Source: an uncultured Sphingomonadales bacterium | GTDB taxonomy: Bacteria > Pseudomonadota > Alphaproteobacteria > Sphingomonadales > Sphingomonadaceae | DNA length: 64,000 nt | Reading direction: 5' to 3' | NCBI GenBank assembly: GCA_903821605.1 | Contig: CAIJLZ010000012.1 | Coordinates: 1 to 64,000, forward strand | Position numbers and translations under genes: made by a program | Notes under the pieces: model-generated | The model's database searches: none | Told to the model about the DNA's origin: nothing | The model's input: the letters and a program-made list of their open reading frames with translations, nothing else | Part shown: piece after piece, positions 13,199-47,352 of the stretch | Layout of the letters: each line of letters opens with the position of its first letter | Numbering within the stretch: position 1 is the first letter of the stretch

Positions 13199-13200
13199 GT

Positions 13201-17222: not shown

Positions 17223-17240
17223 ATGCGATGATCTCACTCG

Positions 17241-21735: not shown

Positions 21736-21840
21736 CTGTATCTCGTCTCAAAGTGCAGTCTGTTGCACTGAAACGAGCCCGAAAACCGGGCTGACACCCT
21801 GTCAGTTCACTCGAATTTGACCAGAAGTCCAGTCGAAAAA

Positions 21841-26252: not shown

Positions 26253-26387
26253 TCAGGGCGATCCGGATCGCGCCGTCGAGACGGATGGTCTCGCCGTTCA
26301 GCATGGGATTGACCCCAGAAATACGCCCTGAAATCCCCCCATCGGCGTCCGGGCATAGCCCGAAATCACTACTGGATCGGTCGCCAC
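26248..26387 (-). pseudogene. Chimeric remnant: thiolase N-terminus joined to SDR C-terminus
   Basis: From GTG at 26387 (AAGGAG upstream): VATDPVVISGYARTPMGGFQG = thiolase N-terminus; in another frame NPMLNGETIRLDGAIRIALK* = C-terminus of the SDR intact at 59044-59805. Confidence 0.7.
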
Positions 26388-29344: not shown

Positions 29345-29354
29345 TACAGCCTCC

Positions 29355-30338: not shown

Positions 30339-31275
30339 GGTAGAGGTCCCTCTCGATCACCGAAGCATCGGGCTCGGGTGCCGCCTTTGCCGCTTCATAC
30401 GCTACGGCCACTTCCGCATCAGCCTGCTCGATCAGTCTCGCCGCCTCATTGCCGCTCAGGCGCGCCGCCAACAGCTCCAACGGATCACGATAATCCTTTA
30501 AGTAGTCGGGATCCCGATAATGCTGAGGATCACCAGCATAGTGCCCGTGCTTGCGGGTCACCTTCGCCTCGATCAGCGTCGGCCCCTCGCCAGCACGTGC
30601 CCGCGCGACAGCCTCCACTGTCACCTCATAAACGGCAACCGCATCCTGCCCGTCAACGATCACGCCGGGAATGCCGTAGCCCTTGGCCAGGTTCGCGATA
30701 TCAGCCGAAGCGGAGACATGTTCAGTCCTCGTGCCCACCAGCAATCCGTTATTCTCGCAGAAATAGATCAACGGCAGTTTCCACGCCGCCGCGTGCATCA
30801 TCGTTTCGTGAAATGTACCGCGCGACGCCGTCCCGTCTCCAAAATCGGCCAGACTGACGCGACCGTCCTTGCGGATCTTCGAAGCAAGCGCCGATCCTGC
30901 CGCCAGCGGATAGACCGAGCCCAATGTTGCGCCCTCACCCATGATGCCTAGGCCATAGTCCGACCAATGCGGCACGCCGCCGCCCTTGCCGCGCGTTGCC
31001 CCATTCATCTTGCCGAGCAAGTCACCAAGAATCGGTAACGGGTCCATGCCCTTTCCGATCGCCCAGGCACACCCGCGTCCCTGATACCACAGGTAGTCAT
31101 CACTCCTGAGCGCAGCGGCGGCACCGATCGGCGCCGCCTCCTGCCCCTCACCGGGATGCCACCAACCCGAAAAGCGCTCCTCGCGCGTGTGACGCAGCAT
31201 CAGCAGTTCAATCGCGCGTGAAACCGCCATCTTGTGGAACATGTCTGTAAGCAGCGCAGGCTCTGGCGCAGCCAT
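30328..31275 (-). CDS. 2-oxo acid dehydrogenase E1 alpha subunit (TPP-dependent)
   Basis: GEGATLGSVYPLAAGSALASKIRKDGRVSLADFGDGTASRGTFHETMMHAAAWKLPLIYFCENNG TPP-binding motif. Confidence 0.9.
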   Translation of the reverse strand: MAAPEPALLTDMFHKMAVSRAIELLMLRHTREERFSGWWHPGEGQEAAPIGAAAALRSDDYLWYQGRGCAWAIGKGMDPLPILGDLLGKMNGATRGKGGGVPHWSDYGLGIMGEGATLGSVYPLAAGSALASKIRKDGRVSLADFGDGTASRGTFHETMMHAAAWKLPLIYFCENNGLLVGTRTEHVSASADIANLAKGYGIPGVIVDGQDAVAVYEVTVEAVARARAGEGPTLIEAKVTRKHGHYAGDPQHYRDPDYLKDYRDPLELLAARLSGNEAARLIEQADAEVAVAYEAAKAAPEPDASVIERDLYHVA

Positions 31276-31340: not shown

Positions 31341-31382
31341 ACGCATTTCATTAACAATGTCAACAATAGTGACATTTTGCGT
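31341..31382. promoter_or_regulatory. Operator site S1 of recurring 42-bp motif
   Basis: ACGCATTTCATTA-N16-TGACATTTTGCGT between E1alpha (-) and enoate reductase (+). Confidence 0.6.
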
Positions 31383-31506
31383 ATTTTTTTCGCGCAGTTC
31401 AGTTCGTTTTCGATTGAGCAGCCCCGCCATTCACGATAAGTCATGCTCCAAGCAGCGCCATAACAACGGTGTTGCACGAGAGTATGTCTGTCGAGGCCCC
31501 GCCATC

Positions 31507-33642
31507 ATGTCCCAACGCACGTACAAACATTTGTTAAGCCCGGGCCGAATCAACCAGCTCGAACTTCGCAACCGCATCTTCTTCTCGCCCATGGGCTCCA
31601 ACCTTGCCGAAGAAGACGGCAGCGTGGGCGATCGCCTGCGCACTTACTATGTGGAACGCGCGAAGGGTGGCGCCGCACTGATCACGATGGGATCCGTTTC
31701 TGTCGGCTTCCCCGAAGGCGCCAGCAACTGGCGTCAAGAAGCGATCAGCGATGACCGCTTCATTCCCTCGCTGCAGCGTCTGGCCGACGAAATTCACGAG
31801 CATGGCGGCAAATTGTGTGTGCAGCTCCACCATGGCGGGCTGGTCGCCATGACAGACATGCTCGATGGCCGTGCCGTAGCATGCCCCAACCCACCGCCTG
31901 CGTCTAAGGAGAGTGGTGATTTCGTTGATGTGATGCTTTCCGAGGAACAGGTGAAGTTCTTCGAACCCTATGCCAAAATGGGCGAGGTCCATTACAATTC
32001 ACTCGATGCAATGGGCGTGGATCACATCGTTGATCTCTTCGCCCGTGCCGCCGTTCGCGCGAAGCAGGCCGGTATCGATGCGGTCGAACTGCACGCCGGC
32101 CACGGCTATATCTTCTCCTCCTTCCTCTCGCCCGCCTATAATCACCGCACCGACGAATTCGGCGGATCGGTAGAAAATCGTGCGCGGTTGTTGACAAAAA
32201 CGATCCGCGCTGTTCGCGCTGCGGTTGGCCCAGACTATCCGGTGTGGATGCGGTTCGATAGTCAGGAGTTCCTGATGGACTATGGCATCACGCTAGACGA
32301 TGCGATCACCGTCGCCAAACTGGCCGAGGCCGCCGGACTGGATGCAATCCATGTGTCTGCCCACGGCGACGGCAACTATGGCGCGACCTATTCCACCGGC
32401 CACGCCACAGATATCCGCAACGGCTTTGTCGACAATGCTGCCGCGATCAAGGCGGCCGTCTCCATCCCGGTTATCTGCCCCGGCCGGATCGAGCCAGAGG
32501 ACGCCGATCGCTTTATTGCGCAAGGCAAGCTTGATTTCGTCACGATGGGCCGAAAGCTGCTGGCGGATCCCCACATGCCAAACAAGTTGGCCGCTGGAAC
32601 ACCGCAGGCGGTCCGCCCTTGCGTCTATTGCTACACCTGCATCAGCGCGATCTTCAACTCTAGCCACATCATGTGTGCGGTAAACCCGTTGACCGGCTTC
32701 GAAACCGAACGCCAGCCCGTCGCATCAGATCGCCGCAAAGTCATACTGGTGGTTGGCGGCGGCCCTGGCGGCATGGCCTCGGCCCGCGAACTAGCAGATA
32801 AAGGGCACAAGGTCGTACTCTGCGAAACGACCAACCGCCTTGGCGGCACCGCACAATTCGCCTCAGTCGCCTACGCACCCAACCAGCGCATCGTCGATTG
32901 GCTAAAGCGCGAAGTAGCCGCACGCTCGATAGACGTGCGCCTGAACACCCGTGCCACGCCCGATCTCGCCCGTGCGATTGGCGCAGACGAAGTCATCGTT
33001 GCCACCGGTGCAAGCCGCGCCATGCCGCCCATCCCGGGCGCGGATCGCGATTTCGTATTTTCAGGCGACGACATGCGCAATCTCGTGCTCGGCCAGAATC
33101 TCGGGAGCCTTGTGAATAAGACGGGTGCCGGCACGCGCCTTGCTATGAAGGTCGGCCGCATGACCGGCCTCACCAGACACCTTGGACTGCTGCGTCTCGG
33201 TTCAAAGGCATGGCTGCCATTGGGCAAGCAAGTCGTGATCATTGGCGGCGAACTGGTTGGGCTTGAACTCGCGGAATTCCTCGCCCATCGCGACCGTAAG
33301 GTAACAGTGCTTGAAGAATCCAGCCGTGTGGGCAAGGGTATTCCTCTGGTCCGCCGCTTCCGCGCGGTCAATGGTTGCCGTGATCTTGGCGTTGCAATGC
33401 TGACCGAAGCCGCTGATTTCCAAATTGGTTACAATCAGGTCACATATCGTAACGCCCATGGGCAGGAACGCACCATCCACGCCGATACAGTGATCGTGGC
33501 CAAGGGCGCGACAGCGGACGAAACGCTGGCCGATGCGATGAGGGCCGCCGGGTTCACCGTCCACACCGTCGGCGACTGCACGGGCGTAGGCTACATCGAA
33601 GGCGCGATGCGTGATGCCGCCCTTGTCACGCAGGGTATCTGA
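31507..33642 (+). CDS. OYE-family NADH:flavin oxidoreductase / 2,4-dienoyl-CoA reductase-like
   Basis: LLSPGRINQLELRNRIFFSPMGSN, VELHAGHGYIFSSFLSPAYNHRTDEFGGSVENRARL, C...C Fe-S cysteines (PCVYCYTCISAIFNSSHIMCAVNP), C-terminal FAD/NAD domain. Confidence 0.9.
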   Translation: MSQRTYKHLLSPGRINQLELRNRIFFSPMGSNLAEEDGSVGDRLRTYYVERAKGGAALITMGSVSVGFPEGASNWRQEAISDDRFIPSLQRLADEIHEHGGKLCVQLHHGGLVAMTDMLDGRAVACPNPPPASKESGDFVDVMLSEEQVKFFEPYAKMGEVHYNSLDAMGVDHIVDLFARAAVRAKQAGIDAVELHAGHGYIFSSFLSPAYNHRTDEFGGSVENRARLLTKTIRAVRAAVGPDYPVWMRFDSQEFLMDYGITLDDAITVAKLAEAAGLDAIHVSAHGDGNYGATYSTGHATDIRNGFVDNAAAIKAAVSIPVICPGRIEPEDADRFIAQGKLDFVTMGRKLLADPHMPNKLAAGTPQAVRPCVYCYTCISAIFNSSHIMCAVNPLTGFETERQPVASDRRKVILVVGGGPGGMASARELADKGHKVVLCETTNRLGGTAQFASVAYAPNQRIVDWLKREVAARSIDVRLNTRATPDLARAIGADEVIVATGASRAMPPIPGADRDFVFSGDDMRNLVLGQNLGSLVNKTGAGTRLAMKVGRMTGLTRHLGLLRLGSKAWLPLGKQVVIIGGELVGLELAEFLAHRDRKVTVLEESSRVGKGIPLVRRFRAVNGCRDLGVAMLTEAADFQIGYNQVTYRNAHGQERTIHADTVIVAKGATADETLADAMRAAGFTVHTVGDCTGVGYIEGAMRDAALVTQGI

Positions 33643-33646
33643 AGTG

Positions 33647-34852
33647 ATGCTAGACCACACCCCCGACCGCAACGCCGGCCCGATGGTTGCAGCGGTCTGC
33701 GTTGCGGGTCCCGCGCTCGTCGCACTGATCCCGATGGCGGCGGCGCCCGCGCTCGTCGCCATGGCTATCCATTTCGGCACCGGCGCGGACGACGCGCTCT
33801 TCTCACAGATTGTGATGACCCTTCCTGCGCTCATGCTGATTGTTGCTGCGCCTCTGGCCGGCCTGCTCGCGGGGCGGATCGGCCAACGCGCGGTCCTACT
33901 GTTCTCCCTGACGCTGTATGTGATCGGCGGTGCGGGTGTCCTGTTCATTGGAAGCAGCACGGCACTGGTTGCACTGCGCCTAATTCTTGGCATTGGCGGT
34001 GGCGGGGTGCTTACCTCGTGTCTCGGCCTGATCGGCGATCACTTTTCGGGCCACAAGCGCGAACGCGTTCTTGGCTGGGTGACTTCTGCGTCATCACTGC
34101 TCGCCGGTCTTGCGCTGATCGGTGGCGGCCGACTGGTGGATTTCGGGGGGTGGCAAGCGCCGTTCTCGCTCTACCTGCTCGGTATCCCCACGTTGGCGGC
34201 AGCCTTTACAGTCATTCGCAATTCGCCCGCCTGCCCGCCTACAGCGCCCTCTGGCACCCCCGTGCCACTCCTGACAACTCCGGTACGAGACCTTGCTCGG
34301 GTATGGCCCTATTACGCCCTGCTGGTGCTGCTCACGCTTGGCATGTTTACCCCGGCGATCCAGGCGGGCTTTCTACTTTCGGCGAGGGGGATGGGCAGCG
34401 CGCAAACCATCGGCAGCGTCATTGCAGCGACATCGTTCGTGGCGATGGTCACCGCCTTAGCTTTTGGCCCGCTGCGTGAGCGCATTGGGCTGCATGGCTT
34501 CCTCGCGCTCGATGCGCTGTCGATGGGCCTTGGCATCCTTGTCATCGCCCTGGCTTCGCAAACGTGGCAAGTCTTTGCCGGATGCTGCCTTGTCGGCATT
34601 GGCGCGGGCATGTCCGAGCCTGCCACAGCGTCGATTATATTCAGCCGGGCCCCGGCCTATGTCCACGCGCTTGCCATGGGCGTGATCGTCAGCGCTCTGA
34701 ACGCGGGGCAATTCCTCAATCCGTTGGTGTTTGACGCGCTGCGGCAGGTCACGGGACTGGCCGGTGCGTTCATCGTTTTTGCACTGGCGCTGATTGCAAC
34801 CGCAGTCTTCGTCGCCATACGCCGCCGAGACGATCTTCTCGAAAGGACCTGA
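33647..34852 (+). CDS. MFS transporter
   Basis: 12-TM-like hydrophobic protein, LAGLLAGRIGQRAVLLFSL motif A region; operonic. Confidence 0.82.
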   Translation: MLDHTPDRNAGPMVAAVCVAGPALVALIPMAAAPALVAMAIHFGTGADDALFSQIVMTLPALMLIVAAPLAGLLAGRIGQRAVLLFSLTLYVIGGAGVLFIGSSTALVALRLILGIGGGGVLTSCLGLIGDHFSGHKRERVLGWVTSASSLLAGLALIGGGRLVDFGGWQAPFSLYLLGIPTLAAAFTVIRNSPACPPTAPSGTPVPLLTTPVRDLARVWPYYALLVLLTLGMFTPAIQAGFLLSARGMGSAQTIGSVIAATSFVAMVTALAFGPLRERIGLHGFLALDALSMGLGILVIALASQTWQVFAGCCLVGIGAGMSEPATASIIFSRAPAYVHALAMGVIVSALNAGQFLNPLVFDALRQVTGLAGAFIVFALALIATAVFVAIRRRDDLLERT

Positions 34853-34857
34853 ATTCC

Positions 34858-35619
34858 ATGAATCCCCGCTTCACGAACAAGCGCGTACTCCTCACCGGGG
34901 GCGCATCGGGCATCGGCCGCGCCACAGCTGAGCGCTTCGCCGCCGAAGGCGCGCGCCTCGCGATCGGCGACATTGATGTTACTGGTGCCAACGCCGTTGC
35001 GGCTGAACTGGGCGGTGTCGCGTTTGCCTATGACGCGCGCGATCCGGCCGCTGCCCCGCAGCTTGTCGAACAAGCGGTTGCGGCGCTCGGCGGTATCGAT
35101 ATCCTTCTCAACGTTGCCGGAATCATGACGTGGGGTCGGTTCGAGGAAACCTCGCCCGAAAGCTGGCAACGCACGCTCGAAATCAACTTATCTGGCCCGT
35201 TTTATCTCACGCAGGCCGCTATTCCCCATCTCAAACAGTGCAAGGGCAACATCGTCAGCGTCGCCTCTGCTGGTGGCATGCATCCAGTCTATGGCACTTC
35301 CGCCTACGGCATCAGCAAGGCCGGCGTCATCGCCATGACCCAGTCGGCCTCGCTCGAATTTGCACGCTTCGGGGTGAGGGTCAACGCGGTCGCTCCTGGC
35401 GGCGTCGCTACGCCCATGCATGAAAAAAGCACCGCTGGTAGGGGCGTCGACCCTGCCATCTTTGCCGAAGCGGCAGGCCGCAACATGCCCAAGCTGACCG
35501 ACCGACAAGCCTGCACGCCCGAAGAGGTCGCCGCTGCCATCGCATACCTCGCCTCGAACGAAGCCCGCTTTGCCACTGGCACCGTGCTCGTGCTCGACGG
35601 CGGCCAGGTAACCGGCTAA
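34858..35619 (+). CDS. SDR-family oxidoreductase
   Basis: TGGASGIGRATAERFAAEG; NVAGIM; YGTSAYGISKAGV. Confidence 0.9.
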   Translation: MNPRFTNKRVLLTGGASGIGRATAERFAAEGARLAIGDIDVTGANAVAAELGGVAFAYDARDPAAAPQLVEQAVAALGGIDILLNVAGIMTWGRFEETSPESWQRTLEINLSGPFYLTQAAIPHLKQCKGNIVSVASAGGMHPVYGTSAYGISKAGVIAMTQSASLEFARFGVRVNAVAPGGVATPMHEKSTAGRGVDPAIFAEAAGRNMPKLTDRQACTPEEVAAAIAYLASNEARFATGTVLVLDGGQVTG

Positions 35620-35636
35620 GACAAAAGGGCGACCAC

Positions 35637-36578
35637 ATGGACACCCGCAAGCTGGTCGATCGGGAATTACTGGCCGCGATCGAACTGTTCCCGCCCCTTG
35701 ATCTCGATCGGATGCCGCTGGCGGATCTGCGCGTCGAAATGGGGGCGATGTTTCCAGCGCTCGAATCCCTCGCCAATAATGATGTCTCGCTAGACGTCGT
35801 GACCGTCCCCGCAGCAGGAGAAGGTCCTGCGATCGAGGTCATTTTGCACCGGCCACGCAACGTGGCCGATCCGCTGCCGCTATTTCTGCACATCCACGGA
35901 GGTGGCTTCGTTCTCGGTGCGGCGATTATGGCCTCGCCCGCCAACATTGACGTGGCGCGCCGTGTCGGCTGCGTCGTTGCGTCTGTCGAATACCGCCTTT
36001 CGCCCCATGCCACGGGACCTGAACCGGTCGAGGACTGCTATCGCGCGCTCACTTGGCTGCATGCCCACGCAGACCAATTTGGTATCGATCGCACTAGGAT
36101 AGCGATTGGCGGGGAAAGCGCGGGCGCTGGCTTATCCGCGGCCCTTGCGCTGATGGTACGTGACCGCCACGAATACCAACTCTGTCTGCAACTTCTCCTC
36201 TGCCCAATGCTCGATGATCGCACCGGGGACAATCACCCATTCTGTGGTGAATTTGTCTGGACCGCGCCCACCAATCGCATCGCATGGGCCACCCGCATCG
36301 GCGAATATATCATTGCAAACGACACCAGCGGCTACATCGCATCAGCCCGCGCAGAAAGCCTTGAAGGCTTGCCACCCGCCTATATTTGTGTGGGTGCGCT
36401 GGATCTTTTTCTCGAAGAAGATCTTGAATATGCGCGCCGCCTCGCCCGCGCAGGCGTGCCAGTGGAATTCCACGTCTGGCCCGGAGCCTACCACGGCTTC
36501 GAACTTGCAGCCGATGCTGCACTGACCCGACGCGCATTGGACGAACGCATCGCCGCACTTACCCGCGCATTCAGCTAA
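35637..36578 (+). CDS. Alpha/beta hydrolase, HSL-like esterase
   Basis: LFLHIHGGGFVLGAA, IAIGGESAGAGLSAAL, C-terminal HGFEL. Confidence 0.88.
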   Translation: MDTRKLVDRELLAAIELFPPLDLDRMPLADLRVEMGAMFPALESLANNDVSLDVVTVPAAGEGPAIEVILHRPRNVADPLPLFLHIHGGGFVLGAAIMASPANIDVARRVGCVVASVEYRLSPHATGPEPVEDCYRALTWLHAHADQFGIDRTRIAIGGESAGAGLSAALALMVRDRHEYQLCLQLLLCPMLDDRTGDNHPFCGEFVWTAPTNRIAWATRIGEYIIANDTSGYIASARAESLEGLPPAYICVGALDLFLEEDLEYARRLARAGVPVEFHVWPGAYHGFELAADAALTRRALDERIAALTRAFS

Positions 36579-36598
36579 TCTTGTAAGGAGCAATTCAC

Positions 36599-37672
36599 AT
36601 GAAGCACAGCGGTGTTGACCTCTGGGATACGTTCTGCGCCCGCCTTGGCGAAGCACGAGGAACGCTGCAAGCGGACGGTGCGCCTACCAGCGCGTTCGAT
36701 CAGGCCGAAGGTGCGCGCTATCTCAGCCGGATCGTCCGACTCGGGCTGGAAATGTACCTTGAAGGCGGCGACCCCGATTTCCCCACTTTTGTCCTGCCCA
36801 GCCATGAAACAGCCAAGCTAGGCGGCGACAATCCCGACAATCTCTATCTGTCAGCCACGATACTTGGAGACCGGACTTATCGGCTCACAGGCAATATCGG
36901 CTCGGCCCACTACCTGTCGATTGGTTCGAAGGCCAATCGCTACGCCATTGACGGCACCATGGCTTCCACCGGAGAACTGCAGAAGGAACAATTTCGCGCC
37001 GATGCGAACGGTAACTTCACCGTCATCGCCGGCTTGGAAAAGCCAAAGGGCAACGAAGCGTGGCTTCCACTCGCACCCGATTCCAATATTCTTCAAGTAC
37101 GCCAGACCTTCCTGCATCGAGCGCAAGAGCACCCTGCCCGCTTTGCCATCGAACGCATCAGCGAAGGCCCCACTTTTCCCCCACCGCAAGATCCGGACGC
37201 TATCGCCCGCCGCATGATAGCGGCGGCAGATTTCGTGGTGAATTCCACGCGAATGTTCGCCAACTGGTCAAAGCTATTTATGGCACACCCCAACCAGATG
37301 CGCGATTGGGGACAGGACATGTTCCACAAAGCCGGGGGCGATCCAGCCATCTTCTATTGCCACGGCTACTGGACCCTCGGCCCCGGCGAAATGCTGGTGA
37401 TCGAAACCGACGTGCCCGAATGCGAACACTGGAACATCCAGGTCGATAACTGGTGGATGGAATCAATGGATTACCGCTACGTGCCCACTTGCATCAACGC
37501 AGGCAACGCCGTGCGGGAAGCAGATGGCAGTGTCCGCATCGTACTGGCGGCGGAAAATCCAGGCATACCCAACTGGCTGACCACCCACGGCCACAGCGAA
37601 GGGCACATGCTGCTGCGCTGGGTCCGCGCTGTTTCACATCCTATCCCGCGCGTTAGAGTGGTGCGCCGCTGA
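36599..37672 (+). CDS. DUF1214-domain protein
   Basis: RYLSRIVRLGLEMYLEGGDPDFPTFV...LGGDNPDNLYLSATILGDRTYRLTGNIGSAHYLSIGS. Confidence 0.7.
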   Translation: MKHSGVDLWDTFCARLGEARGTLQADGAPTSAFDQAEGARYLSRIVRLGLEMYLEGGDPDFPTFVLPSHETAKLGGDNPDNLYLSATILGDRTYRLTGNIGSAHYLSIGSKANRYAIDGTMASTGELQKEQFRADANGNFTVIAGLEKPKGNEAWLPLAPDSNILQVRQTFLHRAQEHPARFAIERISEGPTFPPPQDPDAIARRMIAAADFVVNSTRMFANWSKLFMAHPNQMRDWGQDMFHKAGGDPAIFYCHGYWTLGPGEMLVIETDVPECEHWNIQVDNWWMESMDYRYVPTCINAGNAVREADGSVRIVLAAENPGIPNWLTTHGHSEGHMLLRWVRAVSHPIPRVRVVRR

Positions 37673-37674
37673 TT

Positions 37675-37707
37675 GACAATCCGGGGAGGGTTCCGCCCCG
37701 GATTGTC
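37675..37707. terminator. Bidirectional hairpin terminator between convergent genes
   Basis: GACAATCCGGGG-agggttccg-CCCCGGATTGTC, 12-bp perfect stem. Confidence 0.75.
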
Positions 37708-37715
37708 ATGCGGCT

Positions 37716-38510
37716 TTATAGCGGCAGGTAATCACCGCCATTGATGTCCAGCGTTGCGCCGGTCACCGACGACAATTCGTCAAGCAAGAATATAAGGATG
37801 CCACGCGCGCATTCCTCGTCACTCGGGACCCGGCCTAGCGCCATCGTTGCAGAAATGGCAGCCTCTGCTTCGGCCACGCTCGGCCCACCCTTGCCTGCTT
37901 CGCTTTCCAGCCATGCGCGCGCCGGTGCACTCATCGTCCAGCCGATCGCGGGTGTATTCACACGGATACCCTTCTGCCCCAGTTCTTTGGCTAGATAGCG
38001 CGTCAACGAGGCCTGCGCCGCCTTGGTCGCGGCATAGCCCCCCTGATGTTCGACGACCTTACGGGCCACCTGGCTGCCCACGTTTACAATCGCCCCCCCG
38101 CCTTGGCGCTCCATCTGCGGTACGACCGCCTTGATCATGCGGATAGTACCCATCACCGTCACCTCGAAGGCGCGGCCCAACGCATCAAGATCAAGGTCAA
38201 TCACCGGGGCAAGGCTGCCAGGGAAATAGGCACTGTTCACCAGCCCGTCGATCCGACCGAACGCTGACACCGCCTGTTCGACCACCGCAGCGCAATCGGC
38301 ATCATTGGTCACGTCGGCCCGCACGGCCAGTGCCCGTCGGCCAAGCGCCTCAATCTCGCGGACTACTTCGTCCATGATACCACCCGAACGCGAAACCATT
38401 ACCATGTCAGCACCCATTCGTGCCGCTTCGACGGCGATCGTGCGGCCCAGCCCCGGTCCGATACCGGTGACGATCACAACCTTTCCTTGCAACATGCTCA
38501 CAGGTTCCAC
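37716..38510 (-). CDS. SDR-family oxidoreductase
   Basis: VIVTGIGPGLGRTIAVEAARMGADM; C-terminal SSVTGATLDINGG. Confidence 0.88.
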   Translation of the reverse strand: MEPVSMLQGKVVIVTGIGPGLGRTIAVEAARMGADMVMVSRSGGIMDEVVREIEALGRRALAVRADVTNDADCAAVVEQAVSAFGRIDGLVNSAYFPGSLAPVIDLDLDALGRAFEVTVMGTIRMIKAVVPQMERQGGGAIVNVGSQVARKVVEHQGGYAATKAAQASLTRYLAKELGQKGIRVNTPAIGWTMSAPARAWLESEAGKGGPSVAEAEAAISATMALGRVPSDEECARGILIFLLDELSSVTGATLDINGGDYLPL

Positions 38511-39307
38511 CCTCCATCACAGGAAATTGTCTGGCCAGTAACATAGCCGGCGCGGCGCGAGGCGAGAAATACCGCCGTATCGGCCACCTCCTCGGGCTGG
38601 CCATAACGGTGCAATGCAATCGTCGCCTGAACCTGTGTGTGCCATTCCGCATCAAACGCCGTATCTTTCAGGCGGTGGAAGATACCGGCGTCGATCACCC
38701 CGATGGCAATCGTGTTGGCGCGCACACCGTTACCGCCCTCTTCGCGCGCAATGCCTTTCATCAGTTGCTGGATCGCTCCTTTGGGTGCCACCGACAGCAC
38801 ATCGCGCTCAGGCCATTTGACCACCCCGGCCGATCCAACATGAACGTAGGACCCGCCCTGCTTGCGCAGTTCGGGCAATGTCGCGTGTACCACATTGAAA
38901 AAACCGTTCACGTCGTTGTCCACCACGCGCCGCCATTCGTCGGGGGTCACTTCGTGGATCTTGCGCATCTGAATGTCATAGCCAGTTGCCACCACCACCG
39001 TGTGCACGCGTCCGAAGCGAACTACCAGCGCGGCCACCGCCGCCTGTAGACTAGCTGGGTCGGTCACATCGGCCTTAACTAGGTCCACCAACTGCCCGTG
39101 CGCGCGCACAGCCTCAGCCGCGACCTCAGCCCCTTCACGATTGTTCCGATAGGTAATGGCGACATTGGCGCCCGCTGCGGCAAGCCTCTCGCAGATCACC
39201 TGCCCGGTGCCGCCGCTGCCGCCGACAACCAGCGCCACGCCATCCGGAAAATCCGGACCTGATGGACGAATCATTTCACTCTCCCAGGATCGATTGTAAT
39301 TACACAT
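38498..39307 (-). CDS. SDR-family oxidoreductase
   Basis: ALVVGGSGGTGQVICERLAAAGANVAITYRNN; YVTGQTISCDGG. Confidence 0.88.
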   Translation of the reverse strand: MCNYNRSWESEMIRPSGPDFPDGVALVVGGSGGTGQVICERLAAAGANVAITYRNNREGAEVAAEAVRAHGQLVDLVKADVTDPASLQAAVAALVVRFGRVHTVVVATGYDIQMRKIHEVTPDEWRRVVDNDVNGFFNVVHATLPELRKQGGSYVHVGSAGVVKWPERDVLSVAPKGAIQQLMKGIAREEGGNGVRANTIAIGVIDAGIFHRLKDTAFDAEWHTQVQATIALHRYGQPEEVADTAVFLASRRAGYVTGQTISCDGGWNL

Positions 39308-39338
39308 TCAAAACGCATACTGCGGCGCAGCCGCAAAT

Positions 39339-39380
39339 ACGCAAAGCGAGTTTTTTATCTATTATTTTGATCATATGCGC
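39339..39380. promoter_or_regulatory. Operator site S2 of recurring 42-bp motif
   Basis: ACGCAAAGCGAGT-N16-TGATCATATGCGC between SDR (-) and Lrp-1 (+). Confidence 0.55.
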
Positions 39381-39491
39381 AATAAGATTCGCCGGAAATA
39401 AAGAAAATCACACCCTAGTACCCTCGCGAACAATGGGTTGATTTGCACTGCGGCTTCGCCTAGCCCTGCCTGAAATAAAGGAGTTCACGCC

Positions 39492-39962
39492 ATTTCCAAG
39501 CCACGGCTCGACGAACACGATGAAGCCATCATCGCCTGCCTGCGCGAAGATGGCCGCATGGCGATCCGGGATCTTGCGGTGCGGGTCCACCTTAACGAAG
39601 CGACCGTGCGCGCGCGCATCCGCAAGCTCGAACAGTCCAGCACCATGCGCGTCGTCGCTCGGCTCGATCTTGGCGCGGTGGGCTACCCTTTCACGGCACT
39701 TGTAGGCGTCCGACTGAGGGGGCGCTCGATTGAGGATGTATGCAAGGATCTGCTCGCCCTGCCTGAAGTGATATCCGTGCTCTCGGTGATTGGCCGGAAC
39801 GATCTGGAAATTCAGGTGATCGCGCCTTCGCTGGAAGAACTCAACCGCCAACTGACCGAGGTCATTCCAGCCATCGACGGAATCGTCGCATTGGAATCAG
39901 CCCTTGCCATGAAAATCTACAAGTATGTGCAACCATGGGGACGCTTCGATGAAAGCGATTGA
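39492..39962 (+). CDS. Lrp/AsnC-family regulator (first of tandem pair; probable non-ATG start)
   Basis: RLDEHDEAIIACLREDGRMAIRDLAVRVHLNEATVRARIRKLEQ HTH extends upstream of the annotated ATG (39558); in-frame ATT at 39492 preceded by AAGGAG with 8-nt spacing. Confidence 0.75.
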   Translation: MSKPRLDEHDEAIIACLREDGRMAIRDLAVRVHLNEATVRARIRKLEQSSTMRVVARLDLGAVGYPFTALVGVRLRGRSIEDVCKDLLALPEVISVLSVIGRNDLEIQVIAPSLEELNRQLTEVIPAIDGIVALESALAMKIYKYVQPWGRFDESD

Positions 39963-40416
39963 GCTCAACGACCTCGACCGCCGGATCCTCGAACGCCTGT
40001 CAGTCGATGCACGCGTCAGTAACCGCGAGATTGCGCGCGAGCTCGGCCTGACCGAAGGCACGATCCGCATGCGGCTGAAACGACTGACCGACGAAGATGC
40101 CATTCAGGTCGTGGCCATCACCAACTACGACCACATGGACGATCCGCTCGTTGCCTATTTGTGGATCGAGGTAGACGCCACTTTCCCGGTCGGCCCGATT
40201 ATCGAGGCACTCGTCGACGAACCCCAGATCACCTACGTCGCCTCACTGCTCGGTCGGGCAGATATAATGGCGATCACGTGGGTCAACGATGCCAGCCAGC
40301 TGGCAGATTACCTGCACAACCATATCGATAAAATTCCAGGTATCGCGCGCATCCACTACGAACTGACGCATAAGCTGATCAAGCACGACTATCGCACCAC
40401 CAGCATCGTCAAGTAA
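39949..40416 (+). CDS. Lrp/AsnC-family regulator (second of tandem pair)
   Basis: LNDLDRRILERLSVDARVSNREIARELGLTEGTIRMRLKRL HTH plus RAM-like domain; overlaps the first by 14 nt. Confidence 0.9.
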   Translation: MKAIELNDLDRRILERLSVDARVSNREIARELGLTEGTIRMRLKRLTDEDAIQVVAITNYDHMDDPLVAYLWIEVDATFPVGPIIEALVDEPQITYVASLLGRADIMAITWVNDASQLADYLHNHIDKIPGIARIHYELTHKLIKHDYRTTSIVK

Positions 40417-40419
40417 GAT

Positions 40420-40461
40420 ACGCAAAACATCATTTTTAAGACTGTTATTGATGTTTTGCGT
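40420..40461. promoter_or_regulatory. Operator site S3 of recurring 42-bp motif (perfect palindrome)
   Basis: ACGCAAAACATCA-tttttaagactgttat-TGATGTTTTGCGT, 13-bp perfect arms. Confidence 0.7.
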
Positions 40462-40511
40462 TGACATAGGCACATGGATGACGAAAAGCCCTCCAAGATT
40501 TGGAGAGACGC

Positions 40512-40958
40512 ATGACCGACTTTGCGCTGCGCCGCGCGCACCTGAAAAATTTGTTCACGCAGGCCATCACCGCCTATGGGACCAAAGACTTTGATATTTT
40601 CGCCACGTTCGTTCACGAGCAGGCGGAATTCGACTGGCCCTACCTGCCGCTCAAAGAATTTCCCGACCGCATGGTCGGCCGCGATGAGTTCATCGCGATG
40701 TCTCGCGCAGGGATGGCCGATTGCGACGGCTATCACCACCAGATCGATCGCTTCTACGATATGGCAGATCCTGACATGGTTCTGGTCGAATATCACTCTG
40801 GCACTACGCTGCACTCCTCCGGCCGGACATATGCCAACAAATACCTTGGCATCTTGCGCTTCGAGGGCGATCTCGTGGTTCATTGGCGCGAATACGTGAA
40901 CCCTCTGCCAATTATTGAGGCTTTTGGTTTGGAATTCCGAAACGAAGCACTAGCATGA
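40512..40958 (+). CDS. SnoaL/NTF2-like protein
   Basis: LKNLFTQAITAYGTKDFDIFATFVHEQAEFDWPYLPLKEF...LRFEGDLVVHWREYVNPLPIIEAFG, SnoaL-like fold pattern. Confidence 0.75.
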   Translation: MTDFALRRAHLKNLFTQAITAYGTKDFDIFATFVHEQAEFDWPYLPLKEFPDRMVGRDEFIAMSRAGMADCDGYHHQIDRFYDMADPDMVLVEYHSGTTLHSSGRTYANKYLGILRFEGDLVVHWREYVNPLPIIEAFGLEFRNEALA

Positions 40959-42649
40959 ACGGCATCTGGGACAAGGAGGTCGAGGTTCTCATCGTCGGTT
41001 CCGGCGCGGGTGCGATGGCATCCGGCGTCTTTGCTGCCCATCGCGGCGCACGCACGCTGATCGTTGAAAAGAGTGCTCTCTACGGCGGCACAAGCGCCAC
41101 TTCCGGCGGCGGCGTCTGGATACCAGCAAGCGATTCTGCGCTTGAGCAAGGTCAGCAGGATACGCCCGAAGAAGCCTATACCTATATCAAGGAATTGACT
41201 GGCAATACCGTCGCGGATGATCGCATCCGTGCCTTTGTCCAAAACGCCCGTGTTATGAAGGGCGCGATCGAGGCCGTGTCGGCCTTGCGCTTTACCGCCA
41301 TTCCCTACACCGATTATCAGGCCGAGAAACCCGGCGGTAAAATGGGTTACCGCAGCCACGCCTGCAATACGATCCACGCCAGCGAGCTTTCGCCAGAAGA
41401 TTTCGCCACGCTACGAACCACACACCGTTCCGCCATGCTGTTCGGCAAAATTCCTTGGACGATCATGGAATCAGCCCCAATGATCACGCGCGGCCCCGGC
41501 TGGAAAAGCACCATGGCGCGCGTTTTGTTGCGCTATTACAGTGACATCACCCAACGCCTCAGAAGCCCGCGCAGCCGCTTCATCGTGTTCGGCTCGGCTA
41601 TAGCTGCCCACCTCAAAAACGCGCTAAACCGCACCGGCGGCGAACTTTGGCTCAACACCGCACTAATCGATCTACTGCGCGATGAAAGCGGTGTCGTGAC
41701 CGGTGCGTTGGTGCAAAAAAATGGCAAAGTTTTGCGGATCCGAGCCACCCGGGGTGTGATCCTTGGCGCGGGCGGTTTCGAGCGCAATCAGGCCATGCGC
41801 GACCGCTACCTGCCCGGCGAAAGCCGCACCACCTTTTCCGCTAGCCAGGAAAACAATACCGGCGATGCGATCGAGGCTGGCATCCGCATTGGTGCGTCAA
41901 CAGACCTGATGGATGAGGCATGGTGGGCTCCCACTGTCCATGTGCCAGGCGAAGATACCGCTCGCCCGCTGTTTTTTGAACGCGCCTTACCTGGCTGCAT
42001 CATCGTCAACCAGGCAGGCGATCGCTACATGAACGAGGCAAAAAGCTACGACATCGCCGGCAAGGCGATGATAGAGGCTGATCGTCCTGATGCGCGCACA
42101 ATTCCTTCATGGATCATCCTCGATGCCCGCTTCCGGAAGAAATACCCGATGGGGCCGATCATACCGCTATTGCCAGACTGGATGCAATCGCCCGCCGCGC
42201 GCAAGGCCATGAAGAAAGCGTCCACCATAGAAGGCCTAGCGCGCATGATAGGCGTCGATCCTGGCCGGCTTTCAGCCACCATTGCGAAGATCAATCGTTA
42301 CGCCAGCACTGGGGTAGACGAGGATTTCCACCGTGGCTCAGCCCCTTACGACCGCTACTATGGAGATCAGTCGGTCAAGCCAAACCCCAACCTCGCCCCG
42401 CTCGATTGCGCGCCGTTCTATGCCTTACAGGTTTATCCGGGCGATATCGGCACCAAAGGCGGCCTTGCAACCGATGACCGCGCCCGCGTGATCGACATGG
42501 CAGGCGAGCCGATCTCCGGTCTCTATGCTATCGGCAACACCGCAGCCTCAGTTATGGGGCCCTCATATCCCGGTGCGGGGTCCACGCTCGCCCCGGCGAT
42601 GACCTTTGGCATGCTCGCGGTTTACGACATGCTAGGTGAACCGGCATAA
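40955..42649 (+). CDS. FAD-dependent oxidoreductase, 3-ketosteroid dehydrogenase/fumarate reductase-like
   Basis: VEVLIVGSGAGAMASGVFAAHRGARTLIVEKSALYGGTSATSGGGVWIP; C-terminal ISGLYAIGNTAASVMGPSYPGAGSTLAPAMTFG. Confidence 0.88.
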   Translation: MNGIWDKEVEVLIVGSGAGAMASGVFAAHRGARTLIVEKSALYGGTSATSGGGVWIPASDSALEQGQQDTPEEAYTYIKELTGNTVADDRIRAFVQNARVMKGAIEAVSALRFTAIPYTDYQAEKPGGKMGYRSHACNTIHASELSPEDFATLRTTHRSAMLFGKIPWTIMESAPMITRGPGWKSTMARVLLRYYSDITQRLRSPRSRFIVFGSAIAAHLKNALNRTGGELWLNTALIDLLRDESGVVTGALVQKNGKVLRIRATRGVILGAGGFERNQAMRDRYLPGESRTTFSASQENNTGDAIEAGIRIGASTDLMDEAWWAPTVHVPGEDTARPLFFERALPGCIIVNQAGDRYMNEAKSYDIAGKAMIEADRPDARTIPSWIILDARFRKKYPMGPIIPLLPDWMQSPAARKAMKKASTIEGLARMIGVDPGRLSATIAKINRYASTGVDEDFHRGSAPYDRYYGDQSVKPNPNLAPLDCAPFYALQVYPGDIGTKGGLATDDRARVIDMAGEPISGLYAIGNTAASVMGPSYPGAGSTLAPAMTFGMLAVYDMLGEPA

Positions 42650-42973
42650 TCCTTAGCCTGACGCTAACCGGCGTCTCAACCGAGTTCGTTGCGGAAGTCG
42701 CAATGGGCGCTGCACACCTCGACTGATGTGTCTTTGCGACGATATACGATCTGGCCAATACCGCGCCACTCGTCGGGCTCCTTCTCACCGGTCCGCCCGC
42801 CTCCGGTCAACGTCGCCGACAGTAAAGCTGATTGGCCAGTCGCCTCCCGTATCTTCGCGCGCGTCGCAACCAGAGCGGGCGAGGACCCCGGCGTTGCCGA
42901 TGCCCTCGCCCTTAAATTCGGCCTCGGTTAAGGGCAGGTCCGGCGCAGATCCTCCGCAGCGGCGGACCTGTTC

Positions 42974-43519
42974 TCAGGCAGCCGGAGCCGGGGCAATTCC
43001 CTGGTTCAAGCTGTCGATGATCCGGCGCTTCATTGGGCCGACCCATTCAGCCTCAAGCCTCGCATCAAGTAGGCCCGCGCCTTTCAACTCGTCACACAGC
43101 TTCATCTGATGCCCGATGTCGAATAGGTCGAGCTGCGATGAAAACTTACCGCCGCCGCCATAAGTGATGAAGCTCACGCCCTCGGTCTCATAGAACGAAC
43201 CATCGGACCGCGTTCCAGGCCCGCGATTGACCCAGCGACTGAATATCCGATCGCCATTGACGGCGTATTCTAGGATGGGAAAGCTCCATCCAGTCCAGCC
43301 CGAACCGACATCCATGTCGCGTCCGTAATGGGTTGCGCGGATTTCGTCGCGATTGCGCGCGAATACCGGCATCGCCCCGCCATAGGGGCAAAAATACGTC
43401 GCATCTTGGTGATAGAACTCGTCGGCGATCCACGCCCAATGGTTCCGCCGTTCAGCCTCGACAAAGGCATTGCGCAACCCTTCGATTGCAGCTTCCACTT
43501 CTTCGCGGGGGTATGACAC
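42974..43519 (-). CDS. SnoaL/NTF2-like protein
   Basis: EAAIEGLRNAFVEAERRNHWAWIADEFYHQDATYFCPYGG...EYAVNGDRIFSRWVNRGPG; GTG start with AGGAG upstream. Confidence 0.72.
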   Translation of the reverse strand: MSYPREEVEAAIEGLRNAFVEAERRNHWAWIADEFYHQDATYFCPYGGAMPVFARNRDEIRATHYGRDMDVGSGWTGWSFPILEYAVNGDRIFSRWVNRGPGTRSDGSFYETEGVSFITYGGGGKFSSQLDLFDIGHQMKLCDELKGAGLLDARLEAEWVGPMKRRIIDSLNQGIAPAPAA

Positions 43520-43609
43520 AGGTATCTCCTCTCTGAAGCCCCTCTCTGATAGGGCCGCGTTTCCATACAAATTAATTGCACATTGCGCTTTTATAATCCA
43601 TATAAAACT

Positions 43610-43651
43610 ACGCAAAACGACGTTTTATAGAAGGTATTAGGCATTATGCGT
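43610..43651. promoter_or_regulatory. Operator site S4 of recurring 42-bp motif, overlapping a start codon
   Basis: ACGCAAAACGACG-N16-AGGCATTATGCGT; the ATG at 43646 is the start of the sulfotransferase-family CDS. Confidence 0.55.
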
Positions 43652-44809
43652 TTTCTAGATCAACTTAACGCGGAGTGCCTGATCGCACGCGCCCGCGCCA
43701 GCACCGGACTGGCGGACCTCGGTCCGGATCATTATCGCGAACCGCTCGATCAGCTGCTGCGCTCAATGCTCGCTGAAGCGCAGCTCAACGATGCAGGTGC
43801 CAACACGCACGCTGGACGCATCGTCAACGCATTAGAAAATCGCCTGCGCCGCGTCGATCTGGTAAAGCGGCACCCTGGAATCCTCGACGAACAGGTCGAT
43901 GTCGGCGTAATCATCGTCGGCCTGCCACGCACTGGCAGCACCATGCTGCAGCGCCTGCTGGCCGCCAGCCCCCAGGCGACTGCGATTGTGTGGTGGGAAA
44001 CTATTTTTCCCCTGCCCCGCGACGAAAGTGGCCCGGCGGACATCGCCGCACGCAAGGCCGATGCGAAAGCACTGTCCGACCAGTTGGTCGCTGCCTCTGA
44101 AGGCTTCGAGGCGATCCACCCGATGGATGCGTTCGCTCATGATGAGGAACTGCCGCTGATCGAGCAGTCGTTCATCTCCAATATTCCCGAAGCCATGCTC
44201 TACCTGCCCAGCTACGGCGAATGGCTCCTCGCCGCCGACCAGACGCACGCTTATGGCGAACTGCTGGAATGGCTCAAGATTCTCCAGTGGCAAGACCCGA
44301 CGCGGCGCGGCAAGAAGTGGATTCTCAAGGCGCCACATCACCTCACGGCCGTGCGCACAACACTTGAAACCTTCCCCAACGCCATCATCGCCATGACCCA
44401 CCGCCGCGTCGATCACGTCATGGGCAGTTATTATTCGATGGTTGGCTCACTCACGGGTGGGAATACCGATGCTGATCTTTCTAGTGCGCAAGCTGCACAC
44501 TGGACGCAGCGCCTGCACCGCAACCTTGTTGACATGATCCCGGTCCGTGCCGAACAGCCCGACCGCTTCTTCGACATCCAATACGGCGCCCTGTTGACTG
44601 ATCCAGTCGGCAGCGCCCGCGCGCTCTTTGCCGCCGCAGGCATCCCCGTGACCGATGCCGACATCGCAGCCTGGCAACAATGGCTTGGCGGAAACAAGCG
44701 CGACAACCGCCCTTCGCACAAGTACGACCTTGCTGATTACGGCGTCGACAAGGCTCAACTGCTTGCCAATTTCGCTTTCTATTCCAACGCCTACGTCACC
44801 GAGATCTGA
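43646..44809 (+). CDS. Sulfotransferase-family protein
   Basis: VGVIIVGLPRTGSTMLQRLLAASPQ (PAPS 5'-phosphosulfate loop-like); WILKAPHHLTAVRTTLETFPNAIIAMTHRRVDHVMGS. Confidence 0.85.
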   Translation: MRFLDQLNAECLIARARASTGLADLGPDHYREPLDQLLRSMLAEAQLNDAGANTHAGRIVNALENRLRRVDLVKRHPGILDEQVDVGVIIVGLPRTGSTMLQRLLAASPQATAIVWWETIFPLPRDESGPADIAARKADAKALSDQLVAASEGFEAIHPMDAFAHDEELPLIEQSFISNIPEAMLYLPSYGEWLLAADQTHAYGELLEWLKILQWQDPTRRGKKWILKAPHHLTAVRTTLETFPNAIIAMTHRRVDHVMGSYYSMVGSLTGGNTDADLSSAQAAHWTQRLHRNLVDMIPVRAEQPDRFFDIQYGALLTDPVGSARALFAAAGIPVTDADIAAWQQWLGGNKRDNRPSHKYDLADYGVDKAQLLANFAFYSNAYVTEI

Positions 44810-44812
44810 GCG

Positions 44813-45634
44813 ATGGAAATCCGGGGAGAAGAAGCAGCCTATCTGATGGGCAGCGAACGGCCGGCAGCGGGATCCGTGCTCACCAGCACCTCACGCTATC
44901 TCAACAACCCGCGCTTCCGCGATGTCTATGCGCAGATGGGACTGAAGCGCGATGGGTACGATCTGCCGTCCGCATACCTGATCCCGGAAGTAAATCGCGC
45001 CATGGCCGAGGAGATGGACGTCGAAAGCCTCCATGCCCTGCTCGCGGCAGAGCGCAAACGCCTTCCGGAATTTGCACAGTGGCTCGATGCACGCTTCACG
45101 TCGCACTGGAGCGAAGACAGCGTCGCGTCCTGCGCTCCGGGCACCGTTGGTGCGCTGATCCATAATTTCCTGAGCACCAGCGGCATGGAGATAGACTTCA
45201 TGTTCCGTGGCGAACCAGCCGACGATTTCGGCTACCTGATAAAGCGGCGTGTTCAGAACCACGATATCGAGCACATGGTCAGCGGGCTCGATCCCAGCCC
45301 GGTCGGGGAAATCGCGCTGATTGTCGCCAATACAGTCGCGCTGTTCAATTACTTCACCCCCGAATTTGCCAACATGCTGTCATTCCAACCGATGTTCCTC
45401 GCATCGACCAGCTTGATGCGCGCTGCCTGTCACTATCCTGCGGTCACACCGGCCATGCTCGAAGGCTTCGCACTTGGTCACACGGTCGGACGCCGCCAGC
45501 CGCGCCCGCTGTTCATGATCCGTTGGGAAGACTGGATCGACACCCCAGTGGCCGAAGCGCGCGCCGCGCTCGGCTTCGAAGATGGCCCTGCTGCAGAGCA
45601 TTGGGCCTGGACACAGGAGGCTGCGCGTGGATAA
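44813..45634 (+). CDS. Coq4-like protein
   Basis: HDIEHMVSGLDPSPVGEIAL matches the Coq4 metal motif HDxxH-x11-E. Confidence 0.7.
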   Translation: MEIRGEEAAYLMGSERPAAGSVLTSTSRYLNNPRFRDVYAQMGLKRDGYDLPSAYLIPEVNRAMAEEMDVESLHALLAAERKRLPEFAQWLDARFTSHWSEDSVASCAPGTVGALIHNFLSTSGMEIDFMFRGEPADDFGYLIKRRVQNHDIEHMVSGLDPSPVGEIALIVANTVALFNYFTPEFANMLSFQPMFLASTSLMRAACHYPAVTPAMLEGFALGHTVGRRQPRPLFMIRWEDWIDTPVAEARAALGFEDGPAAEHWAWTQEAARG

Positions 45635-46076
45635 CTTTGCCGTTAGCGACCTACTAGCCATTCAGAAACTGGTACACCTGTACCCCCGCCACCTCGATTC
45701 CGGCGATCTTGACGGATTGGGGCAGCTGTTCGCCCAAGCTACGGTTCATTTCGAAGGCGCCCCTCCAGTCGTCAAAGATCCGATTGAAGTTACCCGCATG
45801 TTCGCCGATTTCCTGCGGCTTTATGAAGGGATCCCACGCACCCGCCACATGATCTGCAACTTGATCGTGGAACCGGACGGCCCCGGTCGGGCTGCGGCGA
45901 TCAGCGCGGTCTTTGTGCTTCAGGATGCGCCCGGTGTGCCACTCCAACCGATCATCACCGGTGATTATCACGATCACTTCGCAAAGGTTGACGGGATATG
46001 GCATTTTACCGAACGCCGTATAACCAACGACCTATTCGGCAACCTCTCTGCCCATGGAAAATACGCCATCGACTAA
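45627..46076 (+). CDS. SnoaL/NTF2-like protein
   Basis: DLLAIQKLVHLYPRHLDSGDLDGLGQLFAQATVHFEG...GDYHDHFAKVDGIWHFTERRI; GTG start with ACAGGAGG RBS, overlaps the Coq4-like gene. Confidence 0.78.
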   Translation: MDNFAVSDLLAIQKLVHLYPRHLDSGDLDGLGQLFAQATVHFEGAPPVVKDPIEVTRMFADFLRLYEGIPRTRHMICNLIVEPDGPGRAAAISAVFVLQDAPGVPLQPIITGDYHDHFAKVDGIWHFTERRITNDLFGNLSAHGKYAID

Positions 46077-46086
46077 CAGTGACGGA

Positions 46087-46116
46087 CAGGAATGGGACAG
46101 CCCTTCCCCATTCCTG
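46087..46116. terminator. Hairpin between convergent genes
   Basis: CAGGAATGGG-N10-CCCATTCCTG; no U-tract. Confidence 0.45.
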
Positions 46117-46126
46117 CCGCGTCGCC

Positions 46127-46906
46127 TCAGGCCAGATAGCCGCCGTCGGCAGCGATCACTGCTCCGTTGATGTAGGCGCTCTGGTCCGACAGCAACCAAA
46201 GCGCCGCTTTAGCGATGTCGCCGGGCGTGGCAAAGCGCTTGAGTGGTATCGGTGCGAGCAGCATCTCGCGGTATTCTTCGGCATGGATCACGCCATTAGT
46301 CAGCGGCGTGTCCACCACGCCGGGCGACACGGCATTGCAGCGAACGCCCTGCGCGCCATATTCCTTGGCGATCGTCCGGGTCAGGCCCAGCACACCATGC
46401 TTGGCCGCCGTATAGGCCGCAGTGCGTGGATAGCTGATATGCGCCTGCAACGACGTGGTGTTTACGATCGCGCCACCGCCGCCTTGCAACATCAGCGGCA
46501 GTTCCGCGCGCAGGCAATGGAACACGCCGTCCAAATCCACGCTCAGCACCTTGCGCCACACGTCGAGCGGCAGCGCATGCGTCTCGGGCAACTGCGCACC
46601 TTTCAGCGCCGTCACTTCGGTGATCCCGGCATTGTTGAAGGCGCCGTCTAGTCGCCCGAAGCGCTCGCCGATCGCCGCCACCATGTTCTCACAGGCTCGC
46701 GCATCAGTAACGTCGACCGCCCAGGCAAGCGCACCGGAAAGCTCTGCCGCCACGGCTTCTGCACCGGCCATGTTGCAGTCGGCCACTATCACGTTCGCGC
46801 CTGCCTTGGCCAGCATTCGGCAAGTCGCGGCGCCAATGCCACTGCCACCGCCGGTGACCAACACCACCTTACCCGTGAATTCCAAGTTTTTGCTCCTCTC
46901 GCTCAT
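46127..46906 (-). CDS. SDR-family oxidoreductase
   Basis: VLVTGGGSGIGAATCRMLAKAGANVIVADCN; YTAAKHGVLGLTRTIA. Confidence 0.9.
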   Translation of the reverse strand: MSERSKNLEFTGKVVLVTGGGSGIGAATCRMLAKAGANVIVADCNMAGAEAVAAELSGALAWAVDVTDARACENMVAAIGERFGRLDGAFNNAGITEVTALKGAQLPETHALPLDVWRKVLSVDLDGVFHCLRAELPLMLQGGGGAIVNTTSLQAHISYPRTAAYTAAKHGVLGLTRTIAKEYGAQGVRCNAVSPGVVDTPLTNGVIHAEEYREMLLAPIPLKRFATPGDIAKAALWLLSDQSAYINGAVIAADGGYLA

Positions 46907-47210
46907 GAATGCGCGTCCTCACTCATGATGCGACGCAGATTTGCGCACACCACGCGTGCGATGACGGACATCATGCCGAGACGGCGGATTTCAATTGTTG
47001 CCGCAGGCGCAATCGATCGAGGGTTTCGAAAGGCAAATTTCACGTCACTCCCTTTACGTATTTCGTTGTTTGGGTGGACCGATTCGCCGAATTGCGCATC
47101 ATCATGCAAATCTTACACCCATTTTCGGAAATTCCTGTGAACTCAGCGAGAATTTCCAGAGTGCCCCGCGACGGGCGACGGCCACCTCCCCTCAGTGAAT
47201 GATGCAAATT

Positions 47211-47253
47211 ACGCAAAACGTCAATCAAAAGCTCAATAATTGATGCTTTGCTT
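47211..47253. promoter_or_regulatory. Operator site S5 of recurring motif (N17 spacer)
   Basis: ACGCAAAACGTCA-N17-TGATGCTTTGCTT upstream of TonB-dependent receptor. Confidence 0.6.
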
Positions 47254-47352
47254 TAAAATGCCCTTGATTGAGTCGGCATATATCTCTAATGGAGACCGCA
47301 ATAATACAAACAGCATACGGCCAAACGCCCGATGCTTCCATGGGAGAGATTT

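Follow-up and report, generated by a model that had tools for sequence, protein, structure and literature searches.

Palindromic 42-bp operators and a tandem Lrp/AsnC pair as the likely basis of a catabolic regulon in sphingomonads

We analyzed a 64,000-nucleotide stretch of DNA from an uncultured Sphingomonadales bacterium (GenBank assembly GCA_903821605.1, contig CAIJLZ010000012.1, positions 1 to 64,000; hereafter the window), in which a palindromic motif recurs at five places, S1 to S5, within a catabolic gene cluster. Judged from sequence comparison, these sites are likely the operators of a regulon that is confined to the cluster, specific for its pathway and read by two tandem Lrp/AsnC proteins, Lrp1 and Lrp2, encoded between S2 and S3. 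The sites had been proposed in a first-pass annotation of the window, and all five matched the sequence letter for letter at the coordinates given there. S1 (ACGCATTTCATTA-N16-TGACATTTTGCGT; 31341-31382) lies between the E1-alpha operon on the minus strand and the OYE operon on the plus strand, S2 (39339-39380) between short-chain dehydrogenase/reductase (SDR) genes (minus) and Lrp1 (plus), and S4 (43610-43651) between SnoaL2 (minus) and a sulfotransferase gene (plus). S3 (40420-40461), with perfect 13-bp arms, precedes SnoaL1-KstD, and S5 (47211-47253), which spans 43 bp with an N17 spacer, precedes a TonB-dependent receptor gene.

The proposed location of the sites in intergenic or promoter DNA was borne out, except that the sulfotransferase ATG (43646) falls within S4, in its right arm; the N-terminus encoded from there, MRFLDQL, is kept in two orthologues. 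S1 overlaps OYE only in the longest open reading frame call, via an in-frame upstream ATG at 31357. Orthologue annotation and sequence place the OYE start near 31507. The count of five stood as well, but a probable and degenerate sixth site, S6 (47056-47097; position weight matrix (PWM) score 12.1), had been overlooked in the intergenic region between SDR4 and the TonB receptor, toward the SDR gene. Its counterpart in plasmid pNL2 of Novosphingobium aromaticivorans DSM 12444 (locus L057; site at L057:28138) scores higher, at 21.1, and the S6-S5 distance is 155 bp in the window and 154 bp in pNL2. An extra half-site, TGCGC (43584-43588), stands 26 bp before S4, with TGCGT or TGCGC at -26 in 5/5 loci.

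The core of the motif is ACGCA-N32-TGCGT, commonly flanked by T or A and with an AT-rich interior. The span is 42 bp, or 43 bp at S5, at the S5 counterpart in pNL2 (L057:28292, also N17; N16 in L051) and at S4 of L055. Counted over 38 half-sites, taken from the window and from related loci, the outermost positions read A34 C36 G38 C38 A38, with GCA in 38/38, followed inward by an A/T-rich stretch and then a weak C-G/A-T-C-A. Of the long palindromic arms originally described, the outer ACGCA...TGCGT is invariant, whereas the inner arm is weakly conserved. The supposed TTTT(T)A start of the spacers is found in S2-S4 only and is not conserved.

In a leave-one-out PWM analysis, each omitted site was recovered as the top match of the whole 64 kb, other sites excepted. 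Genome-wide scans covered 2,670,314 bases on 19 contigs. The degenerate pattern ACGCAWWDBN{23,26}VHWWTGCKY returned the five sites and one other match (C13:322690), compared with 1 match per strand for a reversed-pattern control. A 42-position sequence-only model built from 17 conserved sites returned the five sites alone at E<=10; four window sites are part of this model, so that its informative outcome is specificity (absence of other matches), not sensitivity. A scan of this type had been suggested as a means of refuting the operators, and it revealed no rival matches, whether in coding sequence or in the rest of the genome. In a sample of 401 genomes from the order, both the motif (at E<=0.003) and an Lrp1 relative of >52% identity were found in the bacterium's own genome only.

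Close relatives of Lrp1 occur in Novosphingobium jiangmenense, a Novosphingobium metagenome-assembled genome (MAG), Sphingomonas jatrophae, an uncultured Sphingomonadales bin and N. endophyticum, and pNL2 carries an orthologue of 85% identity. The surrounding cluster is syntenic in loci L051, L054, L055 and L057. There the motif fronts the same genes as in the window, before E1-alpha/OYE, SDR/Lrp1, Lrp2/SnoaL1 and SnoaL2/sulfotransferase, and the conservation in syntenic clusters on which the operator proposal had been made to depend was thus observed. S1 and S4 are conserved in these four loci, S3 in these and in S. jatrophae (L053), and S2 in L051-L055 and L057, including the short MAG contig L052. 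The SDR4/TonB-receptor site is kept in both loci that cover that part of the cluster (L051 and L057). Sites persist where the adjacent DNA has diverged between species. Two sites of L055, those at E1-alpha/OYE and at the sulfotransferase gene, have low matrix scores, yet align at the corresponding places with both ACGCA/TGCGT ends intact. In S. jatrophae, the cluster is rearranged and the sites still flank the Lrp pair, with a weaker site preceding SDR4. As for a pathway-specific regulon, the sites are restricted to pathway genes and kept before the same genes.

Lrp1 (type A; 39492-39962, plus strand) and Lrp2 (type B; 39949-40416, plus strand), which overlaps the end of Lrp1, both belong to the Lrp/AsnC family, with intact AsnC-type helix-turn-helix (HTH) and RAM domains. 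The Pfam matches were HTH_AsnC-type and AsnC_trans_reg for both proteins, and HTH_24 in addition for Lrp2. For Lrp1 the HTH matched PF13404 (E=5.7e-13) and the RAM domain PF01037 (E=3e-11); for Lrp2 the HTH matched PF13412 (E=8e-14) and PF13404 (E=1.9e-13), and the RAM domain PF01037 (E=1.4e-8) and PF22482 (E=1.2e-12). Compared with the named subfamilies (Lrp, AsnC, LysM, LrpA), both score far below every NCBIfam equivalog cut-off. Orthologues of Lrp2 are 63-90% identical and always lie immediately 3' of Lrp1.

The start codon of Lrp1 is apparently AUU, which is very rarely used as such (window 39492; L057:20004; L051:10004; L052:1772; L053:10004); in the window it goes with the Shine-Dalgarno sequence AAAGGAG. 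In the window and in pNL2, no ATG, GTG or TTG occurs between the in-frame stop and the ATT, and the next one lies 22 codons on, inside the HTH; the annotation of the pNL2 orthologue likewise begins at ATT. All five of these loci keep the ATT and a Shine-Dalgarno-like sequence, and L054 and L055 offer ATG starts. Alternative starts are a GTG three codons later in L051 and L052 and an upstream in-frame TTG in L053.

Tandem Lrp pairs are frequent in sphingomonad catabolic clusters. In a tree of 46 non-redundant tandem pairs, first and second genes separated with a single A/B change, a few A- or B-type genes having entered the count as single. The identity matrices of first and second genes correlated with r=0.96, a value never equalled in 1000 permutations and partly expected from physical linkage. 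At the gene level, this is the behavior expected of a hetero-oligomeric pair: over the 46 pairs both genes occur together, in fixed order, and co-evolve. By these comparisons, Lrp1 and Lrp2 belong to an ancient two-gene unit. B-type relatives look rare outside Sphingomonadales, two further genomes out of a class-wide sample of 289 having them (E<=1e-14).

The density of the half-site TACGCA/TGCGTA was 1.96 per kb in the DNA upstream of tandem pairs, about six times that in front of single Lrp genes (0.32); the overall density was 0.27. Paralogous pairs at roughly 28-51% identity also have TACGCA. Since the enrichment extends to paralogous Lrp pairs whose target genes differ, the half-site would belong with the Lrp family and not with this particular pathway, which supports, but does not prove, the assignment of the operators to the Lrp proteins. 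The idea that every tandem Lrp pair shares a 42-bp palindrome was considered and rejected, since most paralogous loci show none; a few carry 41-44 bp palindromes of different sequence near the pair (L043:14745, L038:14907).

Lrp1 and Lrp2 may act jointly; mixed dimers or larger assemblies would be the probable form, each 13-bp arm being occupied by one Lrp dimer. The arm centers are 29 bp apart (about 2.8 turns), constant within 1 bp, and would thus be somewhat under three helical turns from each other. In its general form, which we give just under an even chance, this proposal holds that type A and type B Lrp proteins constitute an obligate hetero-oligomeric class of regulators that arose by one ancient duplication and was reused in sphingomonad catabolic clusters, each pair keeping TACGCA but arranging it differently; in the present case the arrangement would be a palindrome of 42 bp that stands a whole number of helical turns from the -35 box. 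Alternatively, a single Lrp protein may read the operator as a homo-oligomer while the other has a separate role. Lrp1 and Lrp2 each have a complete HTH and RAM domain, and a symmetric site would be served by a homodimer on each arm; the fixed gene order and the evolution of A and B in step over 46 pairs argue against it, although linkage could explain part of this. We consider such a division of labor quite possible, if somewhat less than evenly so.

Several observations were made on other Lrp pairs. The same genome contains two more tandem A/B pairs (C4:287209-288128 and C4:295804-296701; L034, L035), adjoined by SDR, OYE and Baeyer-Villiger monooxygenase-like genes. In L058, L059 and L061 (Sphingobium and Novosphingobium plasmids), A/B pairs adjoin genes for extradiol dioxygenase, acyl-CoA dehydrogenase, hydrolase and 4-hydroxy-2-oxovalerate aldolase, a neighborhood resembling the 9,10-seco steroid pathway. 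Three distinct 42-bp inverted repeats with 16-bp spacers lie near a distant Lrp pair (G049; L043:14695, 14745 and 19577), one of which resembles the present motif with ACTAAA replacing ACGCAA. In L065-L067, whose Lrp-pair clade is about 50% identical to the pair of the window, a conserved everted repeat, TGCGT-N20-ACGCA, is located between Lrp1 and KstD-like genes and resembles the -26 half-site at S4.

The position of the operators relative to probable promoters is given as an offset, with the final operator base set to zero and the -35 boxes assigned by eye; the -10 boxes are weak. A probable -35 box TTGACA (40461-40466, plus strand) shares one base with the right end of S3 (offset 0) and is found at the same place in 6/6 loci. 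The probable -35 box of the TonB-receptor promoter, TTGATT (47264-47269, plus), has an offset of 11 from S5 (3/3 loci), and that of the OYE operon, TTGAGC (31414-31419, plus), an offset of 32 from S1 (33 in four orthologues). On the minus strand, GTCAA at the center of S1 (31359-31363; TTGAC on that strand) is the probable -35 box of the E1-alpha operon, with an offset of 18 in 5/5 orthologous S1 sites. The distances of 0, 11 and 32-33 bp are kept though the intervening DNA is unconserved, the boxes being of the type TTGA or TTGT. As these offsets are near whole turns they suggest helical phasing, three distances being few. The spacer of S4 contains, in several orthologues, a purine-rich stretch resembling a ribosome site.

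Where the operator lies upstream of the -35 box by about 0, 1 and 3 helical turns (S3, S5 and S1 toward OYE), the arrangement points, with slightly better than even probability, to activation. At S4 and the E1-alpha side of S1, where the operator overlaps the promoter or gene start, the arrangement looks like repression. A dual role is therefore likely. S2 would provide for autoregulation of the Lrp pair, and an intermediate of a steroid-like substrate may bind the RAM domain and so switch the Lrp complex. The Lrp complex could instead be a plain repressor that is released by a pathway inducer, an explanation that we regard as plausible but short of even likelihood. S4 covers the sulfotransferase start codon, which would put the promoter upstream of or within S4, the E1-alpha -35 box is at the center of S1, and S3 touches its -35 box. 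However, a repressor that simply blocks transcription has no need of the conserved spacing of 11 and 32-33 bp by which S5 and S1, on its OYE side, precede their -35 boxes.

Lrp1 and Lrp2 were the sole regulators found to be common to the orthologous loci. The TetR (60055-60672) and LysR (17241) genes of the window have no counterpart in these loci, TetR homologues being absent from L051-L055 and L057, and no further annotated regulator occurs in the 40 kb around the Lrp pair of pNL2, for which the plasmid gene table is incomplete. Neither TetR nor LysR is conserved with the sites, and both were rejected as readers. We infer that one or both Lrp proteins bind the operators. The first-pass annotation had proposed them as regulators, an assignment strengthened by their being the only shared regulators, by the sites following the rearranged pair and by the TACGCA enrichment at paralogous pairs.

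Several points weigh against this assignment and the regulon built on it. Characterized Lrp proteins usually have degenerate sites, and so sharp a motif is unusual for the family (PMC2995911). The Lrp pair and the sites could be co-inherited through linkage alone. At most paralogous pairs no 42-bp geometry was seen, the half-site being all that is shared, and the enrichment counts span related, non-independent sequences and AT-rich promoters. L052, a short MAG contig, lacks S3; weak sites could have escaped the scan of 400 relatives, in which filters were stricter; and the site positions relative to promoters indicate no single sign of regulation. The operators could also be real but have as their reader a protein of a different family (TetR, LysR, AraC or similar) encoded at an unlinked place, with the Lrp pair a mere target. 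Palindromes this long and clean are seen more typically with such regulators, any target gene would be flanked by sites in the way the Lrp genes are, and the window itself has LysR and TetR genes. These two genes, however, are without counterpart in the orthologous loci, the sites track the Lrp pair in the rearranged S. jatrophae locus, the half-site is enriched at paralogous Lrp pairs with different targets, and the motif is absent elsewhere in the genome, making an unlinked reader unlikely. Chance similarity or a dispersed repeat, for which the short, AT-rich arms might speak, is ruled out for practical purposes by whole-genome scans that yield essentially these sites alone and by the conservation of their positions across species.

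The operons concerned suggest the nature of the pathway. Downstream of S1 on the minus strand are E1-alpha, E1-beta and E2 of a 2-oxoacid dehydrogenase (28106-31275), and on the plus strand an OYE-type enoate reductase (closest solved relatives OYE-type), an MFS transporter, an SDR, an alpha/beta hydrolase and a DUF1214 protein (31507-37672). S3 is followed by a SnoaL-like protein and a 3-ketosteroid delta1-dehydrogenase (KstD) homologue (40512-42649, plus), the latter matching PDB 7p18, '3-oxosteroid 1-dehydrogenase', with E=1.3e-148. Behind S4 are sulfotransferase, Coq4-like and SnoaL_4 proteins (43646-46076, plus), and behind S5 the TonB-dependent receptor (47332-49638, plus; Plug domain), with orthologues in L051 and L057; these assignments are based on Pfam. 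The cluster also encodes a Baeyer-Villiger-type monooxygenase related to cyclohexanone and steroid monooxygenases. Together with the OYE-type reductase, SnoaL-like proteins, SDRs, sulfotransferase and TonB receptor, this gene content makes a steroid or related polycyclic terpenoid the likely substrate. A search for a conserved operator in front of the acyl-CoA dehydrogenase/APH genes (24012-26356) found none. Elsewhere in the window, DabA/DabB-like inorganic carbon transporter genes, a P-II-like protein and the LysR regulator occupy 12848-18107, and resolvase/recombinase, DUF2924, DUF5681 and DNA methylase genes in a row (19685-23870) probably represent a mobile element adjoining the catabolic cluster.

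Little is known of how sphingomonads regulate the breakdown of steroids and terpenoids. In the present case the operator, its likely readers and the target operons are defined well enough for direct testing, with a close orthologue available in N. aromaticivorans DSM 12444. If the paired-Lrp proposal is true, it would provide a general key to the target genes of many tandem Lrp pairs in sphingomonad degraders, and a case of two Lrp paralogues working as one switch.

No paper on this operator was found, and a search with the letters of the operator core ranked unrelated papers best, subscription journals being mostly outside its coverage. Within the literature searched, the operator is thus undescribed, as first claimed. 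The nearest mention concerns the bile-salt cluster of Sphingobium sp. Chol11, with two contiguous Lrp/AsnC genes, NCHOL11_RS15865/RS15860 (PMC12882949). The likeness drawn here is one of gene arrangement: tandem Lrp genes stand within a sphingomonad steroid-degradation cluster. The Chol11 pair is mentioned there without operator, cross-genome pairing or mechanism. In the steroid clusters of Caenibius tardaugens, palindromic operators have been proposed for a TetR regulator (PMC12882949), likewise implying local control of steroid catabolism through intergenic palindromes. Those operators are short, differ in sequence and are assigned to TetR, whereas the present clusters have no conserved TetR homologue.

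Lrp1 and Lrp2 share the AsnC-type HTH and RAM domains of the feast/famine regulators (E. coli Lrp/AsnC, Pyrococcus FL11, PH0140, LysM), and their best solved relatives are 7fby, 9w4v, 2cyy and 1ri7. Lrp targets have several sites on one helix face, 2-3 turns apart, and the published sites are usually degenerate and clustered (PMC2995911). In contrast to such degeneracy, the operator described here is a sharp 42-bp palindrome with nearly invariant ACGCA/TGCGT ends. Unlike characterized Lrp/AsnC systems, this one has two co-inherited tandem paralogues and a proposed regulon confined to one catabolic cluster; regulon and operator type would both be new, in a family, Lrp/AsnC, that is itself known.

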